This document shows positions 32,941 to 45,791 of a DNA stretch of 58,339 bases, in pieces. Origin of the DNA: Rouxiella silvae. GTDB taxonomy: Bacteria; Pseudomonadota; Gammaproteobacteria; Enterobacterales; Enterobacteriaceae. The notes below the pieces were generated by a model. The model was not told where the DNA came from, ran no database searches, and worked only from the letters and a program-made list of their open reading frames with translations. Position 1 is the stretch's first letter. Every line of letters starts with the position of its first letter. The stretch covers positions 1 to 58,339 of the forward strand of contig NZ_MRWD01000033.1 of NCBI RefSeq assembly GCF_002093625.1, read 5' to 3'. The translations under genes were made by a program, and so were the position numbers.

Positions 32941-33999
32941 ATGACAATTCATAACGCCATTACCGAGCTTGTAGGCAATACGCCATTATTAAGGCTTAAC
33001 CGTTTTGGCCAGCAGTTTCAATTAAATGTCGACCTGCTTGCCAAGCTGGAATACTTTAATCCAAACCACAGTATTAAAGACCGAATTGCTTTATCCATGA
33101 TTGAGGCCGCCGAGCGTTCCGGTCAATTAAAACCCGGTGTCACGCTGGTCGATACCACCAGCGGTAATACCGGCATCGGACTGGCGGCCATCGCGGCGGC
33201 CAAGGGATATAAGTTTCGCGTTTATTTACACGATAAACTCAGTGCCGAGCGATTCGCTATTCTCAGCGCTTTCGGCGCAGAGATTATTCCCTTTAGCCAG
33301 GTCCCTGGTTTTGACAAAATTCTGGAAGACAGTGACGGTGATTTCGTTGCCGCCGCCAAGTGGTTGGCCGAAAACGTCATCCTCAAAGAGCCCAATGTAT
33401 TCTTCACTTATCAACTTGAAAATCCGGCTAATCCGCAGGCGCACTACCACAGCACAGGCCCGGAAATTTGGCAACAAACTGCCGGACAGGTGGATATCGT
33501 TATCGCCTCGGTAGGTACGGGGGGCACGCTGTCAGGTACAGGAAAATACCTCAAACAGCTGAAGCCGGACATTAAGCTGATTGCCGTTGAACCGGGCATT
33601 CATTCTATTCCCGACCGAGAAAACCCCGATGCCAAGGAAATTACCGGCGTTCATGCCTTCAGCACCGTTCTGCCCGAGCGCGTTCCCTTGACCTTGGATC
33701 GCGAGCTGTTTGATGAAGTCGTGTCGGTCGAAAGTTGGCAAGCGGTGCAGGCGGCCAGAGAAGTGGCGACTACCGACGGCATCCTGATTGGCGAGTCGTC
33801 GGGCGCAGTGCTTTATGCGGCACGCGAAATTGCCCGGAGGCCAGAAAATAGGGGCAAGCGCATCGTCACTATACTTGCCGACAGCGGTCTGACTTACCTC
33901 TCAACCGGGCTTTATGACCCGCAGCTCAGCATTGAACAAATTAAGGTTCAGGCTTTACTAAAAAGCCGTGCGGCTGAATTCGTTGAGACTCCGTTTTAA
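32941..33999 (+). CDS. cysteine synthase-like PLP enzyme (CysK/CysM family)
   Basis: 352 residues, fold type II PLP enzyme: ELVGNTPLLRL, Lys site NHSIKDRIALSMIEAA, VDTTSGNTGIGLAAIAAAKG, VGTGGTLSGTGKYLK and a C-terminal ILADSGLTYLSTGLY. CysK/CysM combine O-acetylserine with sulfide or thiosulfate to make cysteine. It is longer than CysK (about 320) and sits directly after the ABC ATPase, so it may be a dedicated enzyme that traps the sulfur released from the imported compound. A beta-substitution enzyme with another substrate is possible. Confidence 0.9.
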   Translation: MTIHNAITELVGNTPLLRLNRFGQQFQLNVDLLAKLEYFNPNHSIKDRIALSMIEAAERSGQLKPGVTLVDTTSGNTGIGLAAIAAAKGYKFRVYLHDKLSAERFAILSAFGAEIIPFSQVPGFDKILEDSDGDFVAAAKWLAENVILKEPNVFFTYQLENPANPQAHYHSTGPEIWQQTAGQVDIVIASVGTGGTLSGTGKYLKQLKPDIKLIAVEPGIHSIPDRENPDAKEITGVHAFSTVLPERVPLTLDRELFDEVVSVESWQAVQAAREVATTDGILIGESSGAVLYAAREIARRPENRGKRIVTILADSGLTYLSTGLYDPQLSIEQIKVQALLKSRAAEFVETPF

Positions 34000-34767: not shown

Positions 34768-35715
34768 TCAGTGCTTGTCTAGAGACCAGGTGGCGCTGTT
34801 GACGTTAACCGCCACCGGCAACAGGCCGACATTTTTGAATTTATCCGCTAATACTTGCTGCTCTTTAAACACTTGTGGCGTCATACGCTCGGCGCCAAAC
34901 GGCATTCTCGCCAGCGCTTTTGCCCAAATACTTTTATCGAGGCCAGTTGATTTAGACAAAATATCGGCAGTTGCATCGGAGTGTGTGTTGGCCCAATCGC
35001 TGGTGCTTTTCAATTCATCAATCAGTTTCTCGGCAGTCTGCGGATAGCCTTCGGCAAATTTTCTGCTCGCCAGGAAGAAGGTGTAGTGCGGCACTAATCC
35101 CACAGCGTTTTTCAGCTCACGGGCCTTGGCGTTGGTTTCCACTTCGGCCAGGAACGGATCCCAGATAACCCACGCGTCGATAGCGCCGCGCTGGAAGGCA
35201 GCACGGGCATCGCTTGGGGCTAAATAGACCGGGGTAATGTCTTTGTAAGTCAGGCCTGCATTTTCCAGCGCGGCTACCAGCAGGTAATTAACGTCTGAGC
35301 CTTTGTTAAGCGCCACGCGTTTCCCTTTAAGGTCGGCCACGGTTTTAATGGTCGAGTTCTCCGGTACCACAATGGCTTCGGTTTTCGGACTCGCCGGGGA
35401 GTGGGCCAGATACACCAGGTCAGCCTTGGCCGCCTGGGCAATCACCGGGGGGGCATCGCCGGTGGCCGCTAAATCGATACTGCCGACGTTGAGCCCTTCG
35501 AGCATCTGCGGACCCGCGGTAAACTCGATCCAATGCACCTCGATACCCTGTTTTTTAAAATCGGCATCCAGCGTGCCGCGATATTTTAACAGCGCGAAAA
35601 TATTGGCTTTCTGATAGCCAATATTGACCTCTTTCGGCGTGGTTTCAGCCTGCGCCACCTGCACGGTGGAGAGTAAAACGACCGCTGCGATCGCGTTGAT
35701 CACTAACTTTTTCAT
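34768..35715 (-). CDS. sulfonate ABC transporter substrate-binding protein (SsuA-like), orphan
   Basis: 315 residues with a Sec signal peptide (MKKLVINAIAAVVLLSTVQVA, cleavage after AQA; given here as a landmark from residue 1). The mature SsuA fold shows NIGYQKANIFALLKYRG, IEFTAGPQMLEGLNVGSIDL, RVALNKGSDVNYLLV and GAIDAWVIWDPFLAEVE, as in aliphatic sulfonate-binding proteins. No permease or ATPase is adjacent, so it may share the ABC system at 29767-32923 or an ssuBC elsewhere. It is clearly paralogous to the C-terminal domain of the regulator encoded just upstream at 35840. ATG 35715 is used because it starts the signal peptide. Confidence 0.92.
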   Translation of the reverse strand: MKKLVINAIAAVVLLSTVQVAQAETTPKEVNIGYQKANIFALLKYRGTLDADFKKQGIEVHWIEFTAGPQMLEGLNVGSIDLAATGDAPPVIAQAAKADLVYLAHSPASPKTEAIVVPENSTIKTVADLKGKRVALNKGSDVNYLLVAALENAGLTYKDITPVYLAPSDARAAFQRGAIDAWVIWDPFLAEVETNAKARELKNAVGLVPHYTFFLASRKFAEGYPQTAEKLIDELKSTSDWANTHSDATADILSKSTGLDKSIWAKALARMPFGAERMTPQVFKEQQVLADKFKNVGLLPVAVNVNSATWSLDKH

Positions 35716-35839: not shown

Positions 35840-37729
35840 CTACTCGGTCCACACCGCATCGCGCACTTTAATTGCTCGCGGGATCAGTCCTAGCGCATAA
35901 AACCGGTCGGCAATTGCCTGCTGGTCACGAATAATTCCCAAATCCATTCTCTGTGCCTGATGGCTGCGCCGCGCTAGCGCGTGGGTGAGTGAGTCGGTCG
36001 CCATTCCCAGCTCGGCAGAAAGCAGTGCAGCAGCCTCAAGGCGGTGGCTGTCTATGTAGCGGCCAGTTTGCTCCAGCGCACTCATTACGTGGTGAAGCAG
36101 GTCTGCGGAGTGCGCCGCAAAGTCGCGGTGTGCCAGATAAAACTGATGATTATTAACCCGGCCGCTGCCGTTGGCTATTACCCGGAGCTGGCCGCCGCGC
36201 TCTGCGTCGCTAAGCAGCGGATCCCACATCATCCATGCATCCACGGCGTGGTGGTCGCTCGGGGTTAACGGGTACTTTGGCGGAGAATAGACCACTCGCA
36301 CGTCGTCGAGGGTGAGACCTGCTTCGTCCAGAACTTGCACCAGTAGGTAGTGCACATTCGAGCCTTTATTCACCGCAATGCGCTTACCGCGCAGGTCGCC
36401 GATGGTCTCTATCGGGCTTTCATTGGCCACCACTAGCGCCACGCTTTGAGGGGCAGCCGGCTCCCAGGCGACGTACAGCATGCGATTGTCATTAGCCTGA
36501 GCAAACAGCGGCGGCACTTCGCCGGTGGTACCAAAGTCAATTTCGCCGTTGCTTAGCGCATGTAACAACTGCGGTCCGGCGGGGAATTCACTCCACAAAA
36601 CGCTGATACCCCGGTTGGAAAAATCGGATTCCAACAGCTGCCTGGCTTTGAGGATGCCGAGATTGCCAAATTTCTGATAGCCGATACGCAGTTCACGCTC
36701 GTGCGATGCGAGCGGGGTTCCCCCTCGCTTGCCGTTGACGGCCACACTGCGGCGGGGTTTGATCAATCCGAGATGGCCCAGCTGTGTACGCAGCGTGTTG
36801 CGGCTGACGCCGAGCAAAGTGGCGGTTTGCAGCTGATTGCCGCCGCTTAGCTCAAAGGCGTTGCGCACCAGTGCATCAATTACGCGCTGATAAACCTGCT
36901 CATCACCCTTTTGCAACTGCTGGCGCATGAACTCGTCAAGCGCCTCTTCGCCAACAGGCAGCGAGTCGGCACCCAGTGGACCAAGGCGCAACTGACGCGG
37001 TGTGATTATCGGTTCTTTACTCAGTAGCACCGCGTTATGCAGGGTGTTTTCAAGTTCACGAATGTTGCCCGGCCACGGATACTCCATCAGTGTCAGCAAG
37101 GTTTCATCGCTCAGTTGCAGCTGCGGGCGACCCAGGCGACGGGCATAAAGACGCAGAAAATGCTCGGCCAACAGCGGGATATCTTCTCGGCGCTGGCGCA
37201 GCGGCGGCAGGGTGACTGCGGCAACGTTTAAACGGTAGTACAGATCCTCGCGAAAGCGCCTCTCACGAATGGCCTGCGCCAAATCGACGTGGGTAGCGGC
37301 AATGACCCGCACGTTAACCTTAACGGCGCGATGTGATCCCACGCGCGTGACCTCGCGTTCTTGAAGCACGCGCAGCAGTTTAACCTGTAGCGGCAGACTC
37401 AGTTCACCAATCTCGTCGAGCAACAGCGTGCCGCCCTCGGCAGCCTCAAACCAGCCCTGATGACGGTCGCGTGCGCCGGTGAACGCGCCTTTTTCATGAC
37501 CAAAGAGTTCAGACTCAGCCAGACTTTCTGTCAATGCCCCGCAGTTAACGGCCAGAAACGGTTGCTGCCTGCGCGGGCTGTGGTGATGTAAATAACGCGC
37601 AACCACCTCCTTGCCAGTGCCGGTTTCACCGACGATGAGCACCGTGGCATCGGTAGGCGCCAGACGGTCGAGTACAGTCTGAAAAGCTATCGATGCGGGA
37701 TCGATCAACGTAGGTCCATGACTCTGCAT
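35840..37729 (-). CDS. sigma-54 activator fused to an SsuA-like sulfonate-binding domain
   Basis: 629 residues from ATG 37729 (RBS TTGGAG). Domains in order: AAA+ sigma-54 interaction domain, residues about 8-240, with Walker A GETGTGKE (34-41), the sigma-54 contact loop GAFTGA (81-86), Walker B LLLDEIGE (102-109) and [11 protein letters not shown] (218-228). A Fis-type HTH follows (297-317, [17 protein letters not shown]), then an SsuA-like binding fold (about 347-629: [58 protein letters not shown]). It has no signal peptide, so the binding domain must sense its ligand in the cytoplasm. NtrC-family proteins normally carry the sensor at the N-terminus, so a C-terminal transporter-derived sensor is unusual. 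It is divergent from ssuD and most likely drives the sulfur operon. Confidence 0.93.
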
Positions 37730-37805
37730 CTTCACTCCAAAAATTAGCCGGGAAAGAGACAATACCGCCGAGCGGGGACTTGGGCGAGAGGGAAAAATCG
37801 TGAAT

Positions 37806-37853
37806 TGTTGCGAATGCAGCAGTGACATCGCAGCAGGTGTTGCATTTGCAGCA
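37806..37853. promoter_or_regulatory. paired enhancer sites for the sigma-54 activator
   Basis: TGTTGC-gaat-GCAGCA (37806-37821) and TGTTGC-attt-GCAGCA (37838-37853) are two copies of the same 16-bp imperfect palindrome, 32 bp apart centre to centre, which is three helical turns. A further GCAGCA half site lies between them. They sit about 65-110 bp upstream of the -24/-12 promoter of ssuD and 77 bp upstream of the regulator start, ideal for an activator binding two dimers and possibly for autoregulation. Confidence 0.8.
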
Positions 37854-37915
37854 ATTTTTTAGCTGAGGATTATTTTTAATTCATTGAAATATAACAATAA
37901 TAAAATTCCTGCGCA

Positions 37916-37934
37916 TTGGCACGCTTCCTGCTTT
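37916..37934 (+). promoter_or_regulatory. sigma-54 (-24/-12) promoter of ssuD
   Basis: TTGGCACGCTTCCTGCTTT matches the RpoN consensus: GG at 37918-37919 and GC at 37930-37931 with exactly 10 bases between, inside TGGCAC and CTGCT. It lies 68 bp upstream of the ssuD ATG and downstream of the paired palindromes. Confidence 0.85.
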
Positions 37935-38001
37935 GTTGTTTATAACCAAACTGAAGTTTTTAATCTGTTAAATTCAGATATCGTTATATAGGAAAGTGAT
38001 A

Positions 38002-39174
38002 ATGAGCCATGCAGCGCAGGACAACATCAACGTATTCTGGTTTTTACCTACTCACGGCGACGGACGCTATCTCGGCACTACCGAAGGAGGCCGTCCCGTT
38101 GATTTGCCCTATTTACAACAGGTTGCGCTGGCCGCTGATAATCTCGGCTACTACGGGGTACTGATCCCGACCGGGAAAAGCTGTGAGGATTCGTGGCTGG
38201 TAGCGTCGGCCTTGGCACCGATTACCAAAAAACTGCGTTATCTGGTCGCCGTGCGTCCTGGCCTACAGCCGCCGACGCTGGCGGCGCGCATGGCGGCTAC
38301 CTTAGACCGACTTTCTGAGGGGCGTTTGTTGATTAACGTCGTGACTGGCGGTGACCCCGTTGAGAATAAGGGTGACGGAATTTTCCTCAGCCACGCCGAT
38401 CGCTACAAAGTGACCCGTGAGTTTCTTGAAGTTTATACACGGCTGCTCAAGGGCGAAAAAGTGGATTTCCACGGTGAGCATATTCGGGTTGAAGGTGCCG
38501 AAGTGTTATTCCCACCGGTTCAGGAAAACGGCCCTCCGCTGTATTTCGGTGGATCTTCCGACGAGGCTATCGACGTTGCCGCTGACCAGATTGATACCTA
38601 TCTGACCTGGGGCGAGCCGGTGGCGCAGGTGGCAGAAAAACTGGCGGTCGTGCGTCAGCGGGCTGAAGAACGCGGCCGCAAACTCAGCTACGGCATTCGC
38701 CTGCACGTGATAGTGCGCGAAACCGAAGAGGAAGCCTGGGCCGCGGCAGACCGCCTGATTGCCCATCTTGATGAAGACACTATCGCTGCCGCGCAGAAAA
38801 TCTTTGCCCGTATGGACTCAACCGGACAAGCCCGCATGAGTGCGCTACACGGCGGTTCGCGAGACGGACTGCGCATAGCTCCCAACCTGTGGGCCGGGGT
38901 GGGTCTGGTTCGAGGGGGTGCAGGCACGGCGCTGGTAGGCAATCCGCAGCAGGTCGCCGAGCGTATTCGCGAGTATCAGGCGCTGGGTATAGACAACTTT
39001 ATTTTCTCCGGTTATCCGCATCTCGAAGAGGCGCATCGTTTCGCCGAGCTGGTGATGCCGCTGCTGCCGCTGGCGACGAACGCAGAAAAGCGTCAGCGCA
39101 CGGTGAATACCGGACCTTTCGGTGAAACCATCGGCGGCGATCGTCGCCCGGTAAAACAGAATAATAGCCATTAA
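38002..39174 (+). CDS. ssuD: FMNH2-dependent alkanesulfonate monooxygenase
   Basis: 390 residues, LLM flavin monooxygenase, closely like E. coli Ssu[21 protein letters not shown] at the start, [17 protein letters not shown] with the active-site Cys, VNVVTGGDP-type loop ([16 protein letters not shown]), [16 protein letters not shown], and [11 protein letters not shown] containing the catalytic Arg and His. It splits alkanesulfonates into aldehyde and sulfite using FMNH2 and O2. ATG 38002 follows GGAAAG. It is the first gene after the sigma-54 promoter. No ssuE-like flavin reductase is in the window. Confidence 0.96.
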
Positions 39175-39181
39175 GGATATA

Positions 39182-40288
39182 ATGATGAGCCATAAAATCA
39201 GCAACGATCCTATTCAATTTGCCTACTGGGTGCCCAACGTCTCCGGCGGTTTGGTTATCAGTAATATCCCTCAGCGCACCAGTTGGGACTTTGACTATAA
39301 CCGCAAGCTGGCGCAAATTGCCGAGCGTGCCGGTTTTGACTATGCGCTAACACAGATTCGCTTCACCGCAGGCTATGGCGCAGACAATCAGCATGAGTCG
39401 GTGGCGTTCTCTCACGGACTGCTGGGCGCTACCGAAAAGTTAAAAGTGATCGCCGCGCTGTTGCCAGGCCCTTGGAATCCGACGCTGGCGGCCAAACAGA
39501 TAGCCACCATCAGTCACCTGACTAACGCACGCATCGCGGTGAATATCGTCAGCGGCTGGTTCCGAGGTGAGTTTAAGGCCATCGGCGAGCCGTGGCTGGA
39601 TCACGAAGAACGTTATTTGCGTTCCGAAGAGTTCATTCGCTGTCTGCGCGGTATTTGGCAGGACGAAACCTTCAACTTTGCCGGTGATTTTTATCGCTAT
39701 CGCGACTATGTCATGAAGCCTAAGCCACTCAACCCCTTGCCTGAAATTTTCCAGGGCGGCAGCTCGCGCGCCGCGCGTGATATGGCGGCCCGCGTGTCTG
39801 ACTGGTACTTCACCAACGGCAACAGCGTGGACGGTATTCGCCAGCAGGTTGAAGACATTGAGCATAAAGCGGCGATTAATCATCATAAGGTGAAGGTCGG
39901 GGTTAACGGCTTTGTCATCGCCCGTGAAAGCGAGAAAGAGGCAAAAGAGGTATTGCAGCAAATTATCGACCAGGCAAATCCAGACGCGGTTAAAGGCTTC
40001 CAGCATGAGGCGAAAAATGCCGGCAGCGCTTCGCCGGAAGGCGAGGGCAACTGGGCAAAATCTACCCTAGAAGATTTGGTTCAATACAATGATGGTTTTA
40101 AAACCAATCTGATCGGTACGCCGCAGCAAATTGCCGAACGCATTATTGCCCTGAAAAATGCTGGTGTAAGCCTGATGCTGCTGGGTTTTCTGCACTTCCA
40201 GGAAGAGGTCGAGTTCTTTGGCCGCGAAGTTATGCCGCTGGTGCGTGAGCTGGAGCGTCAGCAGCAGCCGGAGCTGAGTCATGGCTAG
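39182..40288 (+). CDS. sfnG: dimethylsulfone monooxygenase SfnG
   Basis: 368 residues, LLM flavin monooxygenase of the SfnG type: FAYWVPNVSGGLVISNIPQR at the N-terminus, RIAVNIVSGWFRGEFKAIGE, EIFQGGSSRAARDMAARVSD and GFLHFQEEVEFFGREVMPLV. SfnG uses FMNH2 to turn dimethylsulfone into methanesulfinate, feeding the SsuD/MsuD route to sulfite. It starts 8 bp after ssuD and overlaps the next gene by 8 bp. In pseudomonads sfnG is also under sigma-54 control, by SfnR. Confidence 0.93.
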   Translation: MMSHKISNDPIQFAYWVPNVSGGLVISNIPQRTSWDFDYNRKLAQIAERAGFDYALTQIRFTAGYGADNQHESVAFSHGLLGATEKLKVIAALLPGPWNPTLAAKQIATISHLTNARIAVNIVSGWFRGEFKAIGEPWLDHEERYLRSEEFIRCLRGIWQDETFNFAGDFYRYRDYVMKPKPLNPLPEIFQGGSSRAARDMAARVSDWYFTNGNSVDGIRQQVEDIEHKAAINHHKVKVGVNGFVIARESEKEAKEVLQQIIDQANPDAVKGFQHEAKNAGSASPEGEGNWAKSTLEDLVQYNDGFKTNLIGTPQQIAERIIALKNAGVSLMLLGFLHFQEEVEFFGREVMPLVRELERQQQPELSHG

Positions 40289-41696
40289 TCGGCATATCGT
40301 GATTGTCGGCGGTGGATTTTCCGGCACCGCGCTGGCTATTCAACTGGCGCGGCACGGCACTGCCGGGCTTAAGGTGACGGTAATTGAACCTCGCGAGCAG
40401 CTCGGGCGCGGGGTGGCCTACGGCACGCGAGACGCTGCGCACCGCATTAATGTTCCCGCCGAACGCATGCACCTTTCAGCCGCCGAAGAGGGAGATTTTG
40501 ACCGTTGGTTTCGCGCATCACCGGCCTATGAAAAAGATGCCGATGCCCGCTGGTATGACGGAAAAATCTATCCACAGCGTCAACATTTCGGTGCCTACAT
40601 CGGCGAGCAGTATGCGCTGGTGGCCGCGTCTTCGGCGGTAGTGCTCAGACACGTTCGCGACACTGCCGTCGGCTTCGATAACGGCAGTGTGATTACCGCA
40701 AGCGGTCAACGCTATCAGGCCGACGACATTGTGTTGGCCATTAGCCATCCGCCCCCCGCGTTGCCGAATATACTCAAAACGCTGAAAAATAATCCCGCGC
40801 TGATCGCCAACCCGTGGCAGGCCGACGCCTTTTCTGCCGTCGCGCCTGACGAACGTATAGCGATTATTGGCAGCGGATTGACTATGTCAGACGTGGTGGC
40901 CTCGTTGCATCGTCAGGGGCATCGGGGGTCTATTACTGCATTTTCGCGTCGGGGTCAGCTGCCGCGCCCAAATCTCAGCGGGCAATTTGAACCGCGTGCG
41001 CTGGACTACTCCCAGCCGCAGAGTGCCACGGCCCAGGGCTGGCTGCGCCGTATTCGTGATGAAGTGGCGCAAGCCGCCGAACAGAGTTTGCCGTGGCAAC
41101 TGGTGCTCGATGACATTCGCATCAACGGCCAACGCCTGTGGCAGCAGCTTTCTCTCAAAGAACAGCGACGTTTTCTGCGCCACCTTCGTCCTTGGTGGGA
41201 CGTACATCGCTATCGTATTGCGCCGCAGGTGAGTGCGGTATTACAGCAGTTGCAGGACGAACAACGTCTGAAGGTCAGAGCCGCGCGTTTAGCCGGTGCC
41301 ACCGCAGTGGGAAATGAACTGCAACTGACCCTAAAGCCGCGCGGCGCTGAACCTGAGGCACTAACCGTCGACAAAATTATCGTCACCACCGGGCCGGCGC
41401 ACGGTTCATTGCTCAGCAGTGATGCACTGCTCAGCCAACTGTCAGCGCAGGGACGCATTCAGGCTGACCCGCTAGCACTGGGTATTTGGGTGAATCCGCA
41501 GTCGCAAACGTTGAACGGCTCGGGAGAGGCTAATCCGCACCTGCTGGTGGTGGGACCAGCCGCACGAGGCCGTTTTGGCGAGCTGATGGGACTGCCGCAG
41601 GTGGCTGAACACGCCGAAAAGTTGGCCCATCAGTTACTTGATAATGCCGCGCATTCTCAGAACGGTCGATGTCCGGCCTCACTAAAAAACTTCTGA
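40281..41696 (+). CDS. FAD/NAD(P)-binding oxidoreductase
   Basis: 471 residues. The N-terminal FAD Rossmann motif is IVIVGGGFSGTALAIQLARH, followed by LGRGVAYGTRDAAHRINVPA, which is typical of the FAD-NAD(P)-binding family (NAD_binding_9). A second nucleotide motif, RIAIIGSGLTMSDVVASLHR, lies near residue 193, and LVVGPAARGRFGELMGLPQV near the end. Similar proteins accompany sulfonate or sulfone gene sets. It may reduce flavin or oxidise a sulfur intermediate. It overlaps sfnG by 8 bp, so it is translationally coupled. Its exact reaction is unknown. Confidence 0.85.
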   Translation: MASRHIVIVGGGFSGTALAIQLARHGTAGLKVTVIEPREQLGRGVAYGTRDAAHRINVPAERMHLSAAEEGDFDRWFRASPAYEKDADARWYDGKIYPQRQHFGAYIGEQYALVAASSAVVLRHVRDTAVGFDNGSVITASGQRYQADDIVLAISHPPPALPNILKTLKNNPALIANPWQADAFSAVAPDERIAIIGSGLTMSDVVASLHRQGHRGSITAFSRRGQLPRPNLSGQFEPRALDYSQPQSATAQGWLRRIRDEVAQAAEQSLPWQLVLDDIRINGQRLWQQLSLKEQRRFLRHLRPWWDVHRYRIAPQVSAVLQQLQDEQRLKVRAARLAGATAVGNELQLTLKPRGAEPEALTVDKIIVTTGPAHGSLLSSDALLSQLSAQGRIQADPLALGIWVNPQSQTLNGSGEANPHLLVVGPAARGRFGELMGLPQVAEHAEKLAHQLLDNAAHSQNGRCPASLKNF

Positions 41697-41795: not shown

Positions 41796-43205
41796 ATGTC
41801 ATCGCAACGTGAAATTCGCCTTAATGCTTTTGATATGAACTGTGTTGGCCACCAGTCACCTGGCTTGTGGAGGCATCCACGCGACCGCTCTTGGCAGTAT
41901 AAAGATTTATCATATTGGACTGATTTGGCCCGTTTGCTTGAGCGCGGCAAGTTTGATGGCCTGTTTATTGCCGACGTATTGGGCGTTTATGACGTGTTAA
42001 ACGGCAACAACGATGCCGCTATTCGTAACGCAACCCAGGTTCCGGTTAACGATCCGCTGGCGCTTATCACCCCGATGGCGCTGGTGACAGAACATCTCGG
42101 CTTTGGTCTGACGGCGTCACTCTCTTTTGAACATCCATACCCTTTCGCGCGCCGTCTTTCAACGCTGGATCACCTAACCAAGGGGCGTATCGGCTGGAAC
42201 ATTGTGACGTCCTATCTCGAGAGCGGTGCCCGCAATATTGGTTATAAAGAGCAAACTGGGCACGATGCGCGCTATGACTATGCCGATGAGTATCTGCAAG
42301 TGGTTTATAAGCTGCTTGAGGGCAGTTGGGAAGAGGGGGCGATTCTGCGCGATCGTGAGCGTGGTGTTTTCAGTGATCCAAGCAAAATACATCCTATTAA
42401 TCATCAGGGAACCTTCTTCCAGGTGCCCGGCATTCACCTCTGTGAACCTTCGCCACAGCGTACGCCGGTGCTTTATCAGGCGGGGGCGTCGAGCCGTGGA
42501 AAACAGTTTGCAGCCGAGCACGCCGAATGCGTGTTCGTTGCCGCGCCGTCAAAAGTGTTGCTGAAAAAAACCGTCGCCGATATCCGACGCCGCGCAGAAG
42601 AGGCAGGGCGTGACCCGCACAGTATTCTTATTTTCAATCTGCAAACGGTGATTGTGGGGGAAACCGACCAGCAGGCACAGGCTAAATGGCAAGAATACAA
42701 AAGCTATGTCAGCTATGAAGGCGCACTGGCGTTGATTTCAGGCTGGACCGGCATTGATTTTGGCCAGTATCAGCCCGATCAGGTGCTGAAACACCTGCAC
42801 ACCAACGCCATTCAATCGGCGGTAGAAACATTCTCTACCGCCGACCCAAATCGCCAGTGGACCGTGCAGGGTCTGGCTGACTGGGTCGGCATCGGCGGTT
42901 TTGGTCCGCTGCTGGTGGGCAGTGCGCAAACCGTGGCCGATGAGTTACAGAGTTGGGTAGAAGAAACCGACGTTGACGGCTTTAATCTTGCCTACGCGGT
43001 GACCCACGAAACCTTCACCGACGTTGTTGACCTGTTGGTTCCCGAGCTGCAAAAGCGCGGCGTTTACAAGCAGGATTATCAAACGGGCACTCTACGTGAA
43101 AAACTGTTTAACAAGAGTGCGCGGTTGCAGGAGCCGCATCCGGGTGCCGGTTATCGCCGTGCCGCTCACACAGAAACTCAGCCGGTGGGAGTGGACCTGC
43201 CATGA
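41796..43205 (+). CDS. NtaA/SnaA/DszA-family FMNH2-dependent monooxygenase
   Basis: 469 residues, LLM class: LNAFDMNCVGHQSPGLWRHP at the N-terminus, FDGLFIADVLGVYDV, LTASLSFEHPYPFARRLSTL, GRIGWNIVTSYLESGARNIG and VLYQAGASSRGKQFAAEHAE. DszA of this family cleaves dibenzothiophene sulfone, NtaA nitrilotriacetate. In this locus the substrate is probably a sulfone or sulfonate. The enzyme is a clear paralogue of that at 51130. It follows AGGAG and overlaps the MetN-like gene by 4 bp (ATGA), so transporter and enzyme are coupled. Confidence 0.93.
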   Translation: MSSQREIRLNAFDMNCVGHQSPGLWRHPRDRSWQYKDLSYWTDLARLLERGKFDGLFIADVLGVYDVLNGNNDAAIRNATQVPVNDPLALITPMALVTEHLGFGLTASLSFEHPYPFARRLSTLDHLTKGRIGWNIVTSYLESGARNIGYKEQTGHDARYDYADEYLQVVYKLLEGSWEEGAILRDRERGVFSDPSKIHPINHQGTFFQVPGIHLCEPSPQRTPVLYQAGASSRGKQFAAEHAECVFVAAPSKVLLKKTVADIRRRAEEAGRDPHSILIFNLQTVIVGETDQQAQAKWQEYKSYVSYEGALALISGWTGIDFGQYQPDQVLKHLHTNAIQSAVETFSTADPNRQWTVQGLADWVGIGGFGPLLVGSAQTVADELQSWVEETDVDGFNLAYAVTHETFTDVVDLLVPELQKRGVYKQDYQTGTLREKLFNKSARLQEPHPGAGYRRAAHTETQPVGVDLP

Positions 43206-44218
43206 TTGAAATCGACAGCCTGCATAAACAGTATCTTACACCGGATGGCCGAGGGGTTGAGGTGTTAAAAGGCGTCTCCCTCACTGTGCCTGCCGCCTCA
43301 ATTACTGCGGTGGTCGGGCCGAGCGGTGCGGGGAAGTCGACGCTGGCAAAATGCATCAGCCTGCTCGAAAAACCCACTTCCGGCAGCATTCGGGTCAATG
43401 GCAAAGACCTGTCAAGGCTTTCTGGGGAGGCGCTACGCCGTGAGCGTCGCGCTATTGGTACGGTTTTTCAGTCTTCTGCTCTGCTCCAGCGTAAAACAGC
43501 ATGGGAGAATATTGCGCTGCCGCTGGAGTGGCTCGGTGTTGTGCCCAAAGACATTAAACGTCACGTTGGGCAACTGCTAGAAAGCGTAGGGCTAGCGGAT
43601 AAATCCCAATTTTACCCCTCACAGCTTTCCGGTGGGCAACGCCAAAGGGTCGGTATTGCCCGCGCGCTGGCGCTGAAGCCTTCTGTGCTGTTGGCCGATG
43701 AGGCTACCTCAGGGCTGGATCCCGAGGCAACACAATCAATTTTGACTCTGCTAAAACAGCTGCGAGACCAGTTTGGTTTGGCCATTGTGTTGATAACACA
43801 CGAGATGGACGTCGTGCGCAGCGCGGCGGATGCAGTGGCTGAGATACGTGACGGCAGACTTTTGCAACACGGCACACTTCAGGCACTGCTTGCCCAACCA
43901 GAATCTCGCCTTGGTCAGCAGCTTTTCCCGCTTCAGCCGATTGATGCCAGCTGTGATTTGGTGTTGCAGCTGAGCTATGGCGATCGCCGACTCGCCACCG
44001 ATTGGATAAGCCAGCTCAGTCAGCAGCACCATTTGCAGATTGATGTGCTGGCCGCCCACGTCGAAAAGGTGGGCGACAGGCTCGCGGGAAGAATGCGCAT
44101 TGGCGTGCGTTTTAACCATCGGTCGGTCGATATTCAAACGCTCATCCAGCAGCTCTATCAACTCGGCATCAACTCGGACGTTATACAGACCACTCAGCTG
44201 TGGCAGGAGGCAGTATGA
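43202..44218 (+). CDS. MetN-like ABC transporter ATP-binding protein
   Basis: 338 residues: Walker A GPSGAGKSTLAKCISLLEKP, IGTVFQSSALLQRKTAWENI, signature LSGGQRQRVGIARALALKPS, Walker B LLADEATSGLDPEATQSIL, and ITHEMDVVRSAADAVAEIRD. A C-terminal NIL regulatory domain (about 265-335, CDLVLQLSYGDRR ... GINSDVIQTTQLW) places it in the methionine uptake MetN family. The context of sulfur monooxygenases suggests a methionine-like or other organosulfur substrate. Starts and stops overlap (ATGA) on both sides. Confidence 0.93.
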   Translation: MIEIDSLHKQYLTPDGRGVEVLKGVSLTVPAASITAVVGPSGAGKSTLAKCISLLEKPTSGSIRVNGKDLSRLSGEALRRERRAIGTVFQSSALLQRKTAWENIALPLEWLGVVPKDIKRHVGQLLESVGLADKSQFYPSQLSGGQRQRVGIARALALKPSVLLADEATSGLDPEATQSILTLLKQLRDQFGLAIVLITHEMDVVRSAADAVAEIRDGRLLQHGTLQALLAQPESRLGQQLFPLQPIDASCDLVLQLSYGDRRLATDWISQLSQQHHLQIDVLAAHVEKVGDRLAGRMRIGVRFNHRSVDIQTLIQQLYQLGINSDVIQTTQLWQEAV

Positions 44219-44919
44219 AACCGGTTGATGTGATGAGTCAGGATACACCCTGGAGCCAAATTCACACCCTAATGCTGCCAGCCTATCTTGAAACCTGGTT
44301 GATGGTCGGCATCGTTATGCTGTTTGTGGTGACCCTTGGAGGCCTGCTGGGCATCGTTTTATTCAACACCTCAAAACGCGGACTGTTTGCACAGCCAGGC
44401 GTTAATCACGCTCTGAGCTGGTTGGTGAATATGGGCCGTTCGCTGCCGTTTTTGGTGCTGATGGCGGCAATTATTCCTTTCACCTTCTGGTTAACCGGTA
44501 CCACCATCGGTATTCCTGCGGCAGTGATCCCGATGATTGTTGCCGGCACGCCGTTTTTTGCCCGCCTGGTGGAAAACGCGCTGCGGGAATTACCGGCCGA
44601 CGTCACCGCCGTAGGACTGGTTTCGGGTGGGTCAACTTGGCAAATAATTTCACGGGCGCAAATCAGCGAAGCCCTGCCGGCGATTGTGGCGGCAATCGTT
44701 CTGAATCTTATTTCGATGATTGAGTATTCCGCCATTGCCGGCACCATCGGCGCGGGTGGTATCGGTTATCTGGCCGTGGTGTATGGCTATCAGCGCTTTG
44801 ATAACCACATCATGATTGCCACCATCGTCGTGCTTATCGTCACTATTCAATTGATTCAATTTATTGGCGATCGACTGGTCGCCTCTCTTCAACACGCAAA
44901 GGGTACACATTCATCATGA
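44215..44919 (+). CDS. MetI-like ABC transporter permease
   Basis: 234 residues with five membrane segments: LETWLMVGIVMLFVVTLGGL, NMGRSLPFLVLMAAIIPFT, the coupling loop ENALRELPADVTAVGLVSGG and IEYSAIAGTIGAGGIGYLAV, all MetI hallmarks. ATG 44215, preceded by AGGAGG, overlaps the stop of the MetN-like gene. It forms the channel of the organosulfur importer. Confidence 0.93.
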   Translation: MKPVDVMSQDTPWSQIHTLMLPAYLETWLMVGIVMLFVVTLGGLLGIVLFNTSKRGLFAQPGVNHALSWLVNMGRSLPFLVLMAAIIPFTFWLTGTTIGIPAAVIPMIVAGTPFFARLVENALRELPADVTAVGLVSGGSTWQIISRAQISEALPAIVAAIVLNLISMIEYSAIAGTIGAGGIGYLAVVYGYQRFDNHIMIATIVVLIVTIQLIQFIGDRLVASLQHAKGTHSS

Positions 44920-45791
44920 CGCAGCAAGATTTTGAAATTAAAAAGAAGAAAAACTGGCCGTGGGTAGCGCTGGTCGTGGCGATAATAGTCATAGCCGCCT
45001 TGGCTTGGCATTTTACCTCTCAGCAACGCGACGCAGTGACGTTTGGCACGACGTTAAAAGTGCACTTTGAACCCGCAATGGCCGGTGAGCAGAAGCTTAT
45101 CGAGTACGTTGCACAAAATATTGCCCCCGATTACGGCATAAAAATCGAGGCTGTGGGCCTTCAGGATCCGGTTCAGGCCGACAGAGCCGTAGCCGACGGT
45201 CAGTATGCCGCCACGGTTTATCAGCATCAGTGGTGGCTCAAGCAGGTTGTTGACGCCAATAAATTTGCACTCACACCCACGATGCCGCTGTTCCAATGGG
45301 CGTTTGGAATTTACTCGGACCGCTATCATTCCATCGATGAGCTGCCGCAGGGTGCCGAAATCGTTGTGCCAAACGACGGAGCCAATCAGGGGCAGGCACT
45401 TTGGCTGCTCCAGCGTATTGGACTGATCGGCCTCAACCCGGCTGTTGAGCCACGTACCGCGAAATTGTCAGATATTAAAGAAAATCCTCACAACTTTACG
45501 TTCAAAGAGCTGGACTTGTTAACCATGCCTCGCGCTTTAAATTCGGTGGACGCGGCAATTGGCTATGTTTCTCAGTTTGATGCCGGAAAAGTGCCTCGTG
45601 ATAAAGGCATTTTGTTCCCTGCCGCGCCAAAAACCTTTGCTTCGCAGCTGGTGATCGGTACGCCTTATCTTAATGAAGAAAATATTATCAAACTGAAAAA
45701 AGCCTTTGCTGACCCACGTTTGCAGCAGTGGTTAAAAGAGACAAACGACCCGTTGGTCCGAGGTGTATTAGTGCCCGTCTCAGCAGAGTAA
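44916..45791 (+). CDS. MetQ/NlpA-family binding protein with a membrane anchor, no lipobox
   Basis: 291 residues. The fold is NlpA/MetQ: KVHFEPAMAGEQKLIEYVAQ, YAATVYQHQWWLKQV, VVPNDGANQGQALWLLQRIG, NSVDAAIGYVSQF. The N-terminus differs from MetQ: a basic stretch (KKKKNWPW) and one hydrophobic helix (about 16-31, VALVVAIIVIAALAW) without the lipobox Cys. It is probably held by an uncleaved signal anchor rather than by lipid. It binds the substrate for the MetNI-like transporter, and ATGA coupling links it to the permease. Confidence 0.9.
   Translation: MTQQDFEIKKKKNWPWVALVVAIIVIAALAWHFTSQQRDAVTFGTTLKVHFEPAMAGEQKLIEYVAQNIAPDYGIKIEAVGLQDPVQADRAVADGQYAATVYQHQWWLKQVVDANKFALTPTMPLFQWAFGIYSDRYHSIDELPQGAEIVVPNDGANQGQALWLLQRIGLIGLNPAVEPRTAKLSDIKENPHNFTFKELDLLTMPRALNSVDAAIGYVSQFDAGKVPRDKGILFPAAPKTFASQLVIGTPYLNEENIIKLKKAFADPRLQQWLKETNDPLVRGVLVPVSAE

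Follow-up and report, generated by a model that had tools for sequence, protein, structure and literature searches.

One-component sigma-54 activators such as DmpR, NorR and PrpR carry N-terminal sensors. LevR-type activators have an N-terminal helix-turn-helix (HTH), and their regulatory PRD/EII domains follow the AAA+ domain. The LysR-type regulators CysB and Cbl are cytoplasmic proteins in which an HTH is followed by an effector domain resembling a periplasmic binding protein. For sigma-54 activators in general, the accessible part of PMC4641369 gives an order with the sensor usually first and the HTH last, with some members lacking a sensor.

We describe here a protein whose engine and sensor fold are both known, but whose combination and domain order are new, and which comes with an anatomically complete target promoter. 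It is encoded in the window, by which we mean the whole stretch of 58,339 nucleotides of Rouxiella silvae DNA that was analysed. The fused regulator (35840..37729, minus strand, 629 aa) consists of a sigma-54 AAA+ domain, a Fis-type HTH and an SsuA-type binding domain, as read from its ORF, Pfam and NCBIfam. It shares the AAA+ domain, GAFTGA and the Fis-type HTH with the usual NtrC-family proteins, but their N-terminal sensor is absent. Compared with DmpR, NorR and PrpR it has the same AAA+ engine and Fis-type HTH, and ligand gating is proposed, but here the sensor comes after the HTH. CysB and Cbl likewise have an HTH and then an effector domain, but their HTH is different, they involve neither AAA+ nor sigma-54, and the effector is not of the SsuA family. 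The regulatory part is C-terminal of AAA+ in LevR too, but LevR uses an N-terminal HTH, and its PRD/EII domains are not a solute-binding protein (SBP). Like the fused regulator, relatives resembling SfnR, the Pseudomonas sigma-54 activator for dimethylsulfone, open with the AAA+ domain and lack an N-terminal sensor. The sensor-like domain itself falls under the same family model (TIGR01728) and has the same fold as periplasmic SsuA, but it has no signal peptide and is attached to a transcription activator.

We found no characterised example or description of an AAA+/HTH/SsuA fusion in the open-licence literature, and the initial annotation knew of none either; one may be in print elsewhere. 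In our view the protein is probably a one-component sigma-54 activator that responds to substrate and is devoted to the divergent desulfonation operon beside it. We infer its ligand class and the sign of its control from the sequence.

Frame and domains of the regulator

We place the start at ATG 37729, which by inspection has GGAG immediately 5' of it. Related proteins align from this start of the 629-aa frame, and the alternative 662-aa ORF would run into the upstream palindrome at 37806-37821. The initial annotation had claimed a single protein with a full sigma-54 AAA+ domain (GAFTGA included), a Fis-type HTH and a C-terminal SsuA-like domain, and Pfam and NCBIfam agree. The AAA+ activator domain with its lid occupies residues 18-248 (36986..37678, minus strand) on the basis of Pfam and AF2 matches. 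Pfam gives Sigma54_activat at residues 18-172 with 233 bits and the AAA lid at 178-248; Walker A (GETGTGKE) lies at residue 34 and GAFTGA at residue 81 (DNA 37472-37489). The Fis-type HTH occupies residues 289-321 (36767..36865, minus strand), where HTH_8 matches 289-314 with 22.6 bits, barely above its cut-off of 22.0, and the AF2 model has helices at 279-294, 299-306 and 310-319. The SsuA-type domain, the presumed sensor, takes up residues 344-628 (35846..36700, minus strand), an assignment that draws on TIGR01728, AF2 and the pocket positions discussed below. The NCBIfam model SsuA_fam (TIGR01728) matches residues 347-628 with 176.8 bits against a cut-off of 163.5, and Pfam NMT1 matches residues 370-559; the narrower PRK11553 model scores 243.8, under its cut-off of 299. 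None of the NCBIfam models names the protein as a whole, and among the matches listed (25 of 33 families) the regulator models are all under cut-off.

According to Pfam and NCBIfam the polypeptide starts at the AAA+ domain and its sole sensor-like domain is C-terminal. These searches, set beside the usual order in the accessible part of PMC4641369, uphold the earlier view that a sensor behind the AAA+ domain is unusual. A cytoplasmic location had been proposed from the lack of a signal peptide, and indeed no signal-like stretch is present: the best 17-residue Kyte-Doolittle mean anywhere in the regulator is 1.08, whereas the signal peptide of the neighbouring binding protein reaches 2.25. Structure prediction had been suggested as a check. 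The AF2 model of the SBP domain folds as SsuA, with a pTM of 0.85 and a TM-score of 0.85 to the MOPS-bound SsuA 3KSX. The whole-protein model matches AAA+ chains of sigma-54 activators, e.g. 1ny5, 6luf and 1ojl, at a pTM of only 0.48, and the arrangement of the domains is not readable from it.

The divergent operon and its promoter

A genome scan with two peptide patterns derived from fused proteins found 84 relatives, of which 80 were kept. The scan would miss distant fusions and gives no frequency. Neighbouring genes in these loci were counted when a match within the limited flanks covered half the length or more at 45% identity or higher, so the counts are lower bounds, and a match is not necessarily an orthologue.

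The presumed target operon opens with an ssuD-type FMNH2-dependent alkanesulfonate monooxygenase (37996..39174, plus strand), with 617.5 bits for TIGR03565 against a cut-off of 518.2; ATG 38002 looks likelier as its start than GTG 37996. It is followed on the same strand by SfnG, a dimethylsulfone monooxygenase (39182..40288; TIGR04021, 588.6 bits, cut-off 382.95; 20/80 loci), an FAD/NAD(P)-binding oxidoreductase (40281..41696; PF13454; 71/80), an FMN-dependent monooxygenase of the NtaA/DmoA family (41796..43205; TIGR03860, 577.5 bits, cut-off 279.7; 70/80) and a MetNIQ-like ABC importer with ATPase, permease and binding lipoprotein (43202..45791; Pfam and NCBIfam, under the MetNIQ cut-offs). 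A MetN-like ATPase is found in 40/80 loci and an MFS carrier in 20/80. On the other side of the regulator lies an exported SsuA-family binding protein (34768..35715, minus strand; TIGR01728, 230.1 bits). Its counterpart occurs in 22/80 loci, directly downstream in 17 of those. A divergent upstream ssuD-type gene, 79-94% identical, is present in 76/80, and a 77th (L089) was seen in the set of intergenic regions. The constant partner of the regulator is the divergent ssuD-type monooxygenase and not the adjoining exported binding protein.

All of this sits in a large organosulfur island (29767-52497 of the window) with sulfonate-type ABC parts, ssuD and sfnG. The island also has a cysteine-synthase-like gene at 32941 (under its cut-offs), two NtaA/DmoA-type monooxygenases (41796 and 51130) and three SfnB-family genes, of which 47404 is under the cut-off and 48680 and 49925 are above it.

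The promoter set holds 78 sequences, the ssuD-regulator intergenic regions of the window and of 77 loci, with L020, L050 and L051 dropped. A sigma-54 -24/-12 promoter, TGGCACGCTTCCTGC (37917..37931, plus strand), precedes the ssuD operon at a position conserved in relatives. The -24 TGGCAY and the -12 GC are found in 78/78 at one location, 115-120 nt away from the end of each extracted sequence; a stricter pattern with YYGC matches 76/78, and shuffled sequences have the pattern at the fixed place in 2 of 2,340 cases. Centred about 71 and 103 bases ahead of TGG are two palindromes of the form TGYTGC-N4-GCARCA, a conserved pair without assigned strand: the distal TGTTGCGAATGCAGCA (37806..37821) and, 32 bp from it, the proximal TGTTGCATTTGCAGCA (37838..37853). 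At the fixed spacing, 78, 74, 53 and 25 of the 78 sequences have a pair with at least 9, 10, 11 and 12 of 12 matches, respectively; no shuffled upstream sequence has one. When thinned to 57 sequences, the palindrome arms have conservations of 0.90 and 0.87 against a background of 0.57. The promoter reaches 0.95, a biased value since the promoter is the alignment anchor.

Taken singly these motifs are weak. With one mismatch allowed, the promoter pattern occurs 37 times in the window alone against 38.7 expected; the genome has single exact palindromes at 4 places, and a reversed control occurs at 3. What counts is the occurrence as a pair and the constant location among relatives, which are not independent of each other. 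At up to 3/24 mismatches the 5.28 Mb genome has the pair a single time (reversed control 0), and the two other exact single sites fall within mechanical ORFs, which counters the idea of a wider regulon. RpoN is encoded in the same genome. As far as one can read it from DNA, this would be a sigma-54 switch serving one operon. The initial annotation argued for a one-component sulfur regulator, and a sigma-54 promoter with paired sites before a desulfonation operon makes this the likeliest role.

An IHF-like site, of the consensus YAA-N4-TTGA-N-W, lies at about 37877-37889 of the window, some 40 bases before the -24 element. We rejected it as a conserved element between palindromes and promoter since it is present in just 24/78. 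Rfam gave two matches in 37600-38100 (E 0.11 and 0.14), both far under their gathering scores.

The strongest feature here that the activator model leaves unaccounted for is an inverted repeat in the leader, TATAAC-N36-GTTATA (37941..37988, plus strand). It lies immediately 3' of the sigma-54 promoter, spans the start region and ends adjoining the ribosome-binding site. The facing arms are present in 78/78 sequences, exactly 42 bp apart in 75 of them, with much of the intervening sequence variable. The repeat occurs once in the genome and the reversed control pattern 3 times, so its uniqueness means little and its weight is its constancy among relatives. The leader of the window shows no folding advantage over shuffles (z 0.25), and we rejected an RNA hairpin on that count; together with the invariant arms this makes a protein site look likelier. 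The repeat is possibly the operator of a second regulator.

What the SsuA domain would sense

Gln36, Gly68, Gly86 and Ser141 hold the sulfonate in Xanthomonas citri SsuA, whose pocket also contains Trp185 (PMC3839906). We transferred this numbering to the fused domain via alignment. Gln352, Gly385, Gly403 and Trp502, the equivalents of Gln36, Gly68, Gly86 and Trp185, are present in 20/20 fused rows; three of the four sulfonate-coordinating positions and the pocket tryptophan are retained. The fourth, Ser141, is Asn458 in 20/20 fused rows, so the specificity of the fused domain may differ. Of the 30 free SsuA rows, a set that in the pocket count includes two duplicates and two neighbour-type rows, 22 likewise have Asn here. 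Glu404, His460, Glu423 and Asn-His-Gln 527-529 are common to the fused rows and 21-26 of the 30 free rows, and proteins of the neighbour type carry other residues at all seven of these pocket-region positions in 22/22. Outside the pocket, Asp486 (30/30 free, 22/22 neighbour-type) is Tyr, Ile or Met in the fused rows and Arg488 (27/30 free, 22/22 neighbour-type) is Leu. The pocket is thus retained and the second-lobe segment, Asp-Ala-Arg 486-488 in free SsuA, rebuilt. The rebuilt segment means lobe movement may differ, and with the pocket retained it suggests that the transporter role has been lost.

We propose that the Fis-type HTH would bind both palindromes and that a cytoplasmic alkanesulfonate would close the C-terminal SsuA domain. 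Closure would alter its contact with the HTH/AAA+ part, a ring would assemble on the paired palindromes and remodel the sigma-54 RNA polymerase, and ssuD and its companion genes would then be expressed. Since the first enzyme of the operon is above the equivalog cut-off for an alkanesulfonate monooxygenase, the ligands of the sensor would belong to the same class as those of the enzyme. We lean, though less firmly, towards the general statement that these proteins form a class of sigma-54 activators with a complete SBP as cytoplasmic sensor after the HTH, in which a flytrap closing on a nutrient at the DNA licenses ring assembly at a single operon behind a two-operator promoter, the palindrome pair plus the TATAAC repeat.

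Sulfate repression is general for sulfur-scavenging genes, which leads to the first alternative. The C-terminal domain may sense a repressing signal, such as sulfite, a sulfate-like end product or a metabolite of sulfur plenty, and shut the activator off, with induction reporting only sulfur starvation. The dipole that binds anions in SsuA-type proteins might accept small oxyanions, and the title of one paper has SfnR regulated by CysB. We nevertheless find this alternative unlikely. According to PMC3839906, MOPS, MES, HEPES and CHES stabilised X. citri SsuA, whereas sulfate, thiosulfate and taurine did not. The fused domain retains most of the pocket positions of that protein.

It is very unlikely, in our opinion, that the domain is a docking module for the cytoplasmic side of an importer, or for the monooxygenase, through which the regulator would signal the state of transport or of the enzyme instead of free ligand. 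There are importers among the operon neighbours, and contacts of the MalT-MalK type between regulator and transporter exist elsewhere. However, what was lost is a segment that free SsuA proteins keep constant, free SsuA works on the opposite side of the membrane, and the linked importer is inconstant, as the counts for the MetN-like ATPase and the MFS carrier indicate.

We give still less credence to a structural or vestigial SBP domain that senses nothing, on an activator that is always competent, as SfnR may be, and governed by its own expression only. Such a reading would fit with the SfnR-like relatives, which are wholly without a sensor domain. It does not fit with the selection on the domain. 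Against L025, L011 and L018, the three computable pairs, dN/dS is 0.053, 0.061 and 0.049 in the SBP part, little above the 0.033, 0.050 and 0.023 of the AAA+ part; against L013 synonymous change was saturated. The SBP domain is under strong purifying selection, and its pocket positions stay invariant in 20/20 rows while the linker, the most variable part of the protein, drifts.

Spread and ancestry of the fusion

That a sequencing error joined two genes can be dismissed as practically impossible: the missed stop once feared between residues 330 and 350 does not exist, the frame being intact across the HTH-SBP junction in 77/80 loci from many genera and assemblies, the copies on Pantoea plasmids are single genes annotated 'sigma-54-dependent Fis family transcriptional regulator', and the only support found for such an artefact is three broken frames in 80 loci. 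One of these three has a stop (L020) and two are broken (L087 and L089); L051, cut by a contig end, is counted among the intact 77.

The architecture survey that the initial annotation had proposed gave the same fusion in 80/80 kept loci, all of which match from HTH through SBP (query 1 to 347-350). By record titles 79 of the 80 are Enterobacterales, and the genera include Rouxiella, Ewingella, Serratia, Pantoea, Erwinia, Klebsiella, Raoultella, Kluyvera, Hafnia, Lonsdalea and others. The exception, L087, is on the 953 kb plasmid p1 of Pseudomonas sp. T1-3-2, where ssuD-, oxidoreductase- and monooxygenase-like genes surround the broken regulator frame; this copy may represent a transfer of the module. 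In even samples, with the window's own genome counted each time, the fusion was found in 4/394 genomes of the order, 1/369 of the class and 3/398 of the phylum. The match in the class sample is a full fusion (E 1e-85). The three in the phylum sample match model position 1 to 348 and are all from the window's own family. Six more phylum-sample matches start at model positions 30-40; their frames, of 333-489 aa, leave no room for an AAA+ domain as well. In the long frames around three other SsuA-like matches (L129-L131) the match is confined to the SBP part, and by blastn, on DNA only, 0/5,426 E. coli genomes have 80% of the query in one place. The fusion is widespread across genera, yet absent at the thresholds used from most sampled genomes.

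We built trees for each half of the protein, using 20 of the 77 fused proteins in each and omitting L020, L051, L087 and L089 from both. The AAA+/HTH tree has 20 fused proteins, 19 unfused candidates and 7 other activators from the window's own genome; its outgroup branches are long and the program gave a warning. The fused proteins form one clade (100/98), united at 100/98 with 17/19 unfused proteins, the other two falling outside. We call the 17 SfnR-like, a label given here without a sequence labelled SfnR for comparison. They are the nearest relatives of the AAA+/HTH part found here, at 48-57% identity, and begin at the AAA+ domain with no N-terminal sensor. Unlike the fused regulator they stop a short way past the HTH, at 326-369 aa counted from the match start, without an SsuA domain. 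Fifteen of them come from one family, which we take for Pseudomonadaceae.

The accessible part of PMC8234197 groups msu genes with sfnR. We read the contexts of seven of the 17: two have both ssuD- and sfnG-like genes and five have no such pair. One of the two, L101 (G529:C1:296000-310000), combines an unfused SfnR-like activator with ssuD, sfnG and a free-standing ssuA-like gene nearby, an arrangement that is possibly a picture of the state before the fusion; L158 merely repeats one side of it. The other, L162, has ssuD/msuD- and sfnG-like genes. Sulfonate-type ABC genes lie around L102; at L163 and L165 the only matches are distant ones to monooxygenases, and at L161 and L164 there are none. 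No TGYTGC-N4-GCARCA site pair was found near the scanned SfnR-like loci.

The SBP tree has 68 rows, 4 of 72 having been dropped (two duplicates and two further paralogues of the same genomes). The fused domains form one clade (100/100) on a long branch, and the adjoining exported binding protein sits in a clade of its own (100/100). AU tests reject neither a grouping of the fused SBP with the neighbour clade (p 0.49) nor one with the largest free-SsuA clade (p 0.36). The initial annotation had seen kinship with the binding protein at 34768 and called the sensor a captured sulfonate-binding protein, which suggests capture of the adjoining one. The kinship stands as homology (40% identity), but descent from the neighbour is unsupported, given its own clade, its seven pocket-region differences and its presence in little more than a quarter of the loci. 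We conclude that the fusion probably arose once, when an SsuA was joined to a sensorless SfnR-like activator.

If this reading is true, a transporter's ligand-binding protein has been turned into a sensor for transcription, placed beyond the DNA-binding domain. It would give a testable cytoplasmic alkanesulfonate detector with a defined promoter, which may be of use as a biosensor. It would also offer a hypothesis for substrate-driven control of organosulfur use in many enterobacteria.
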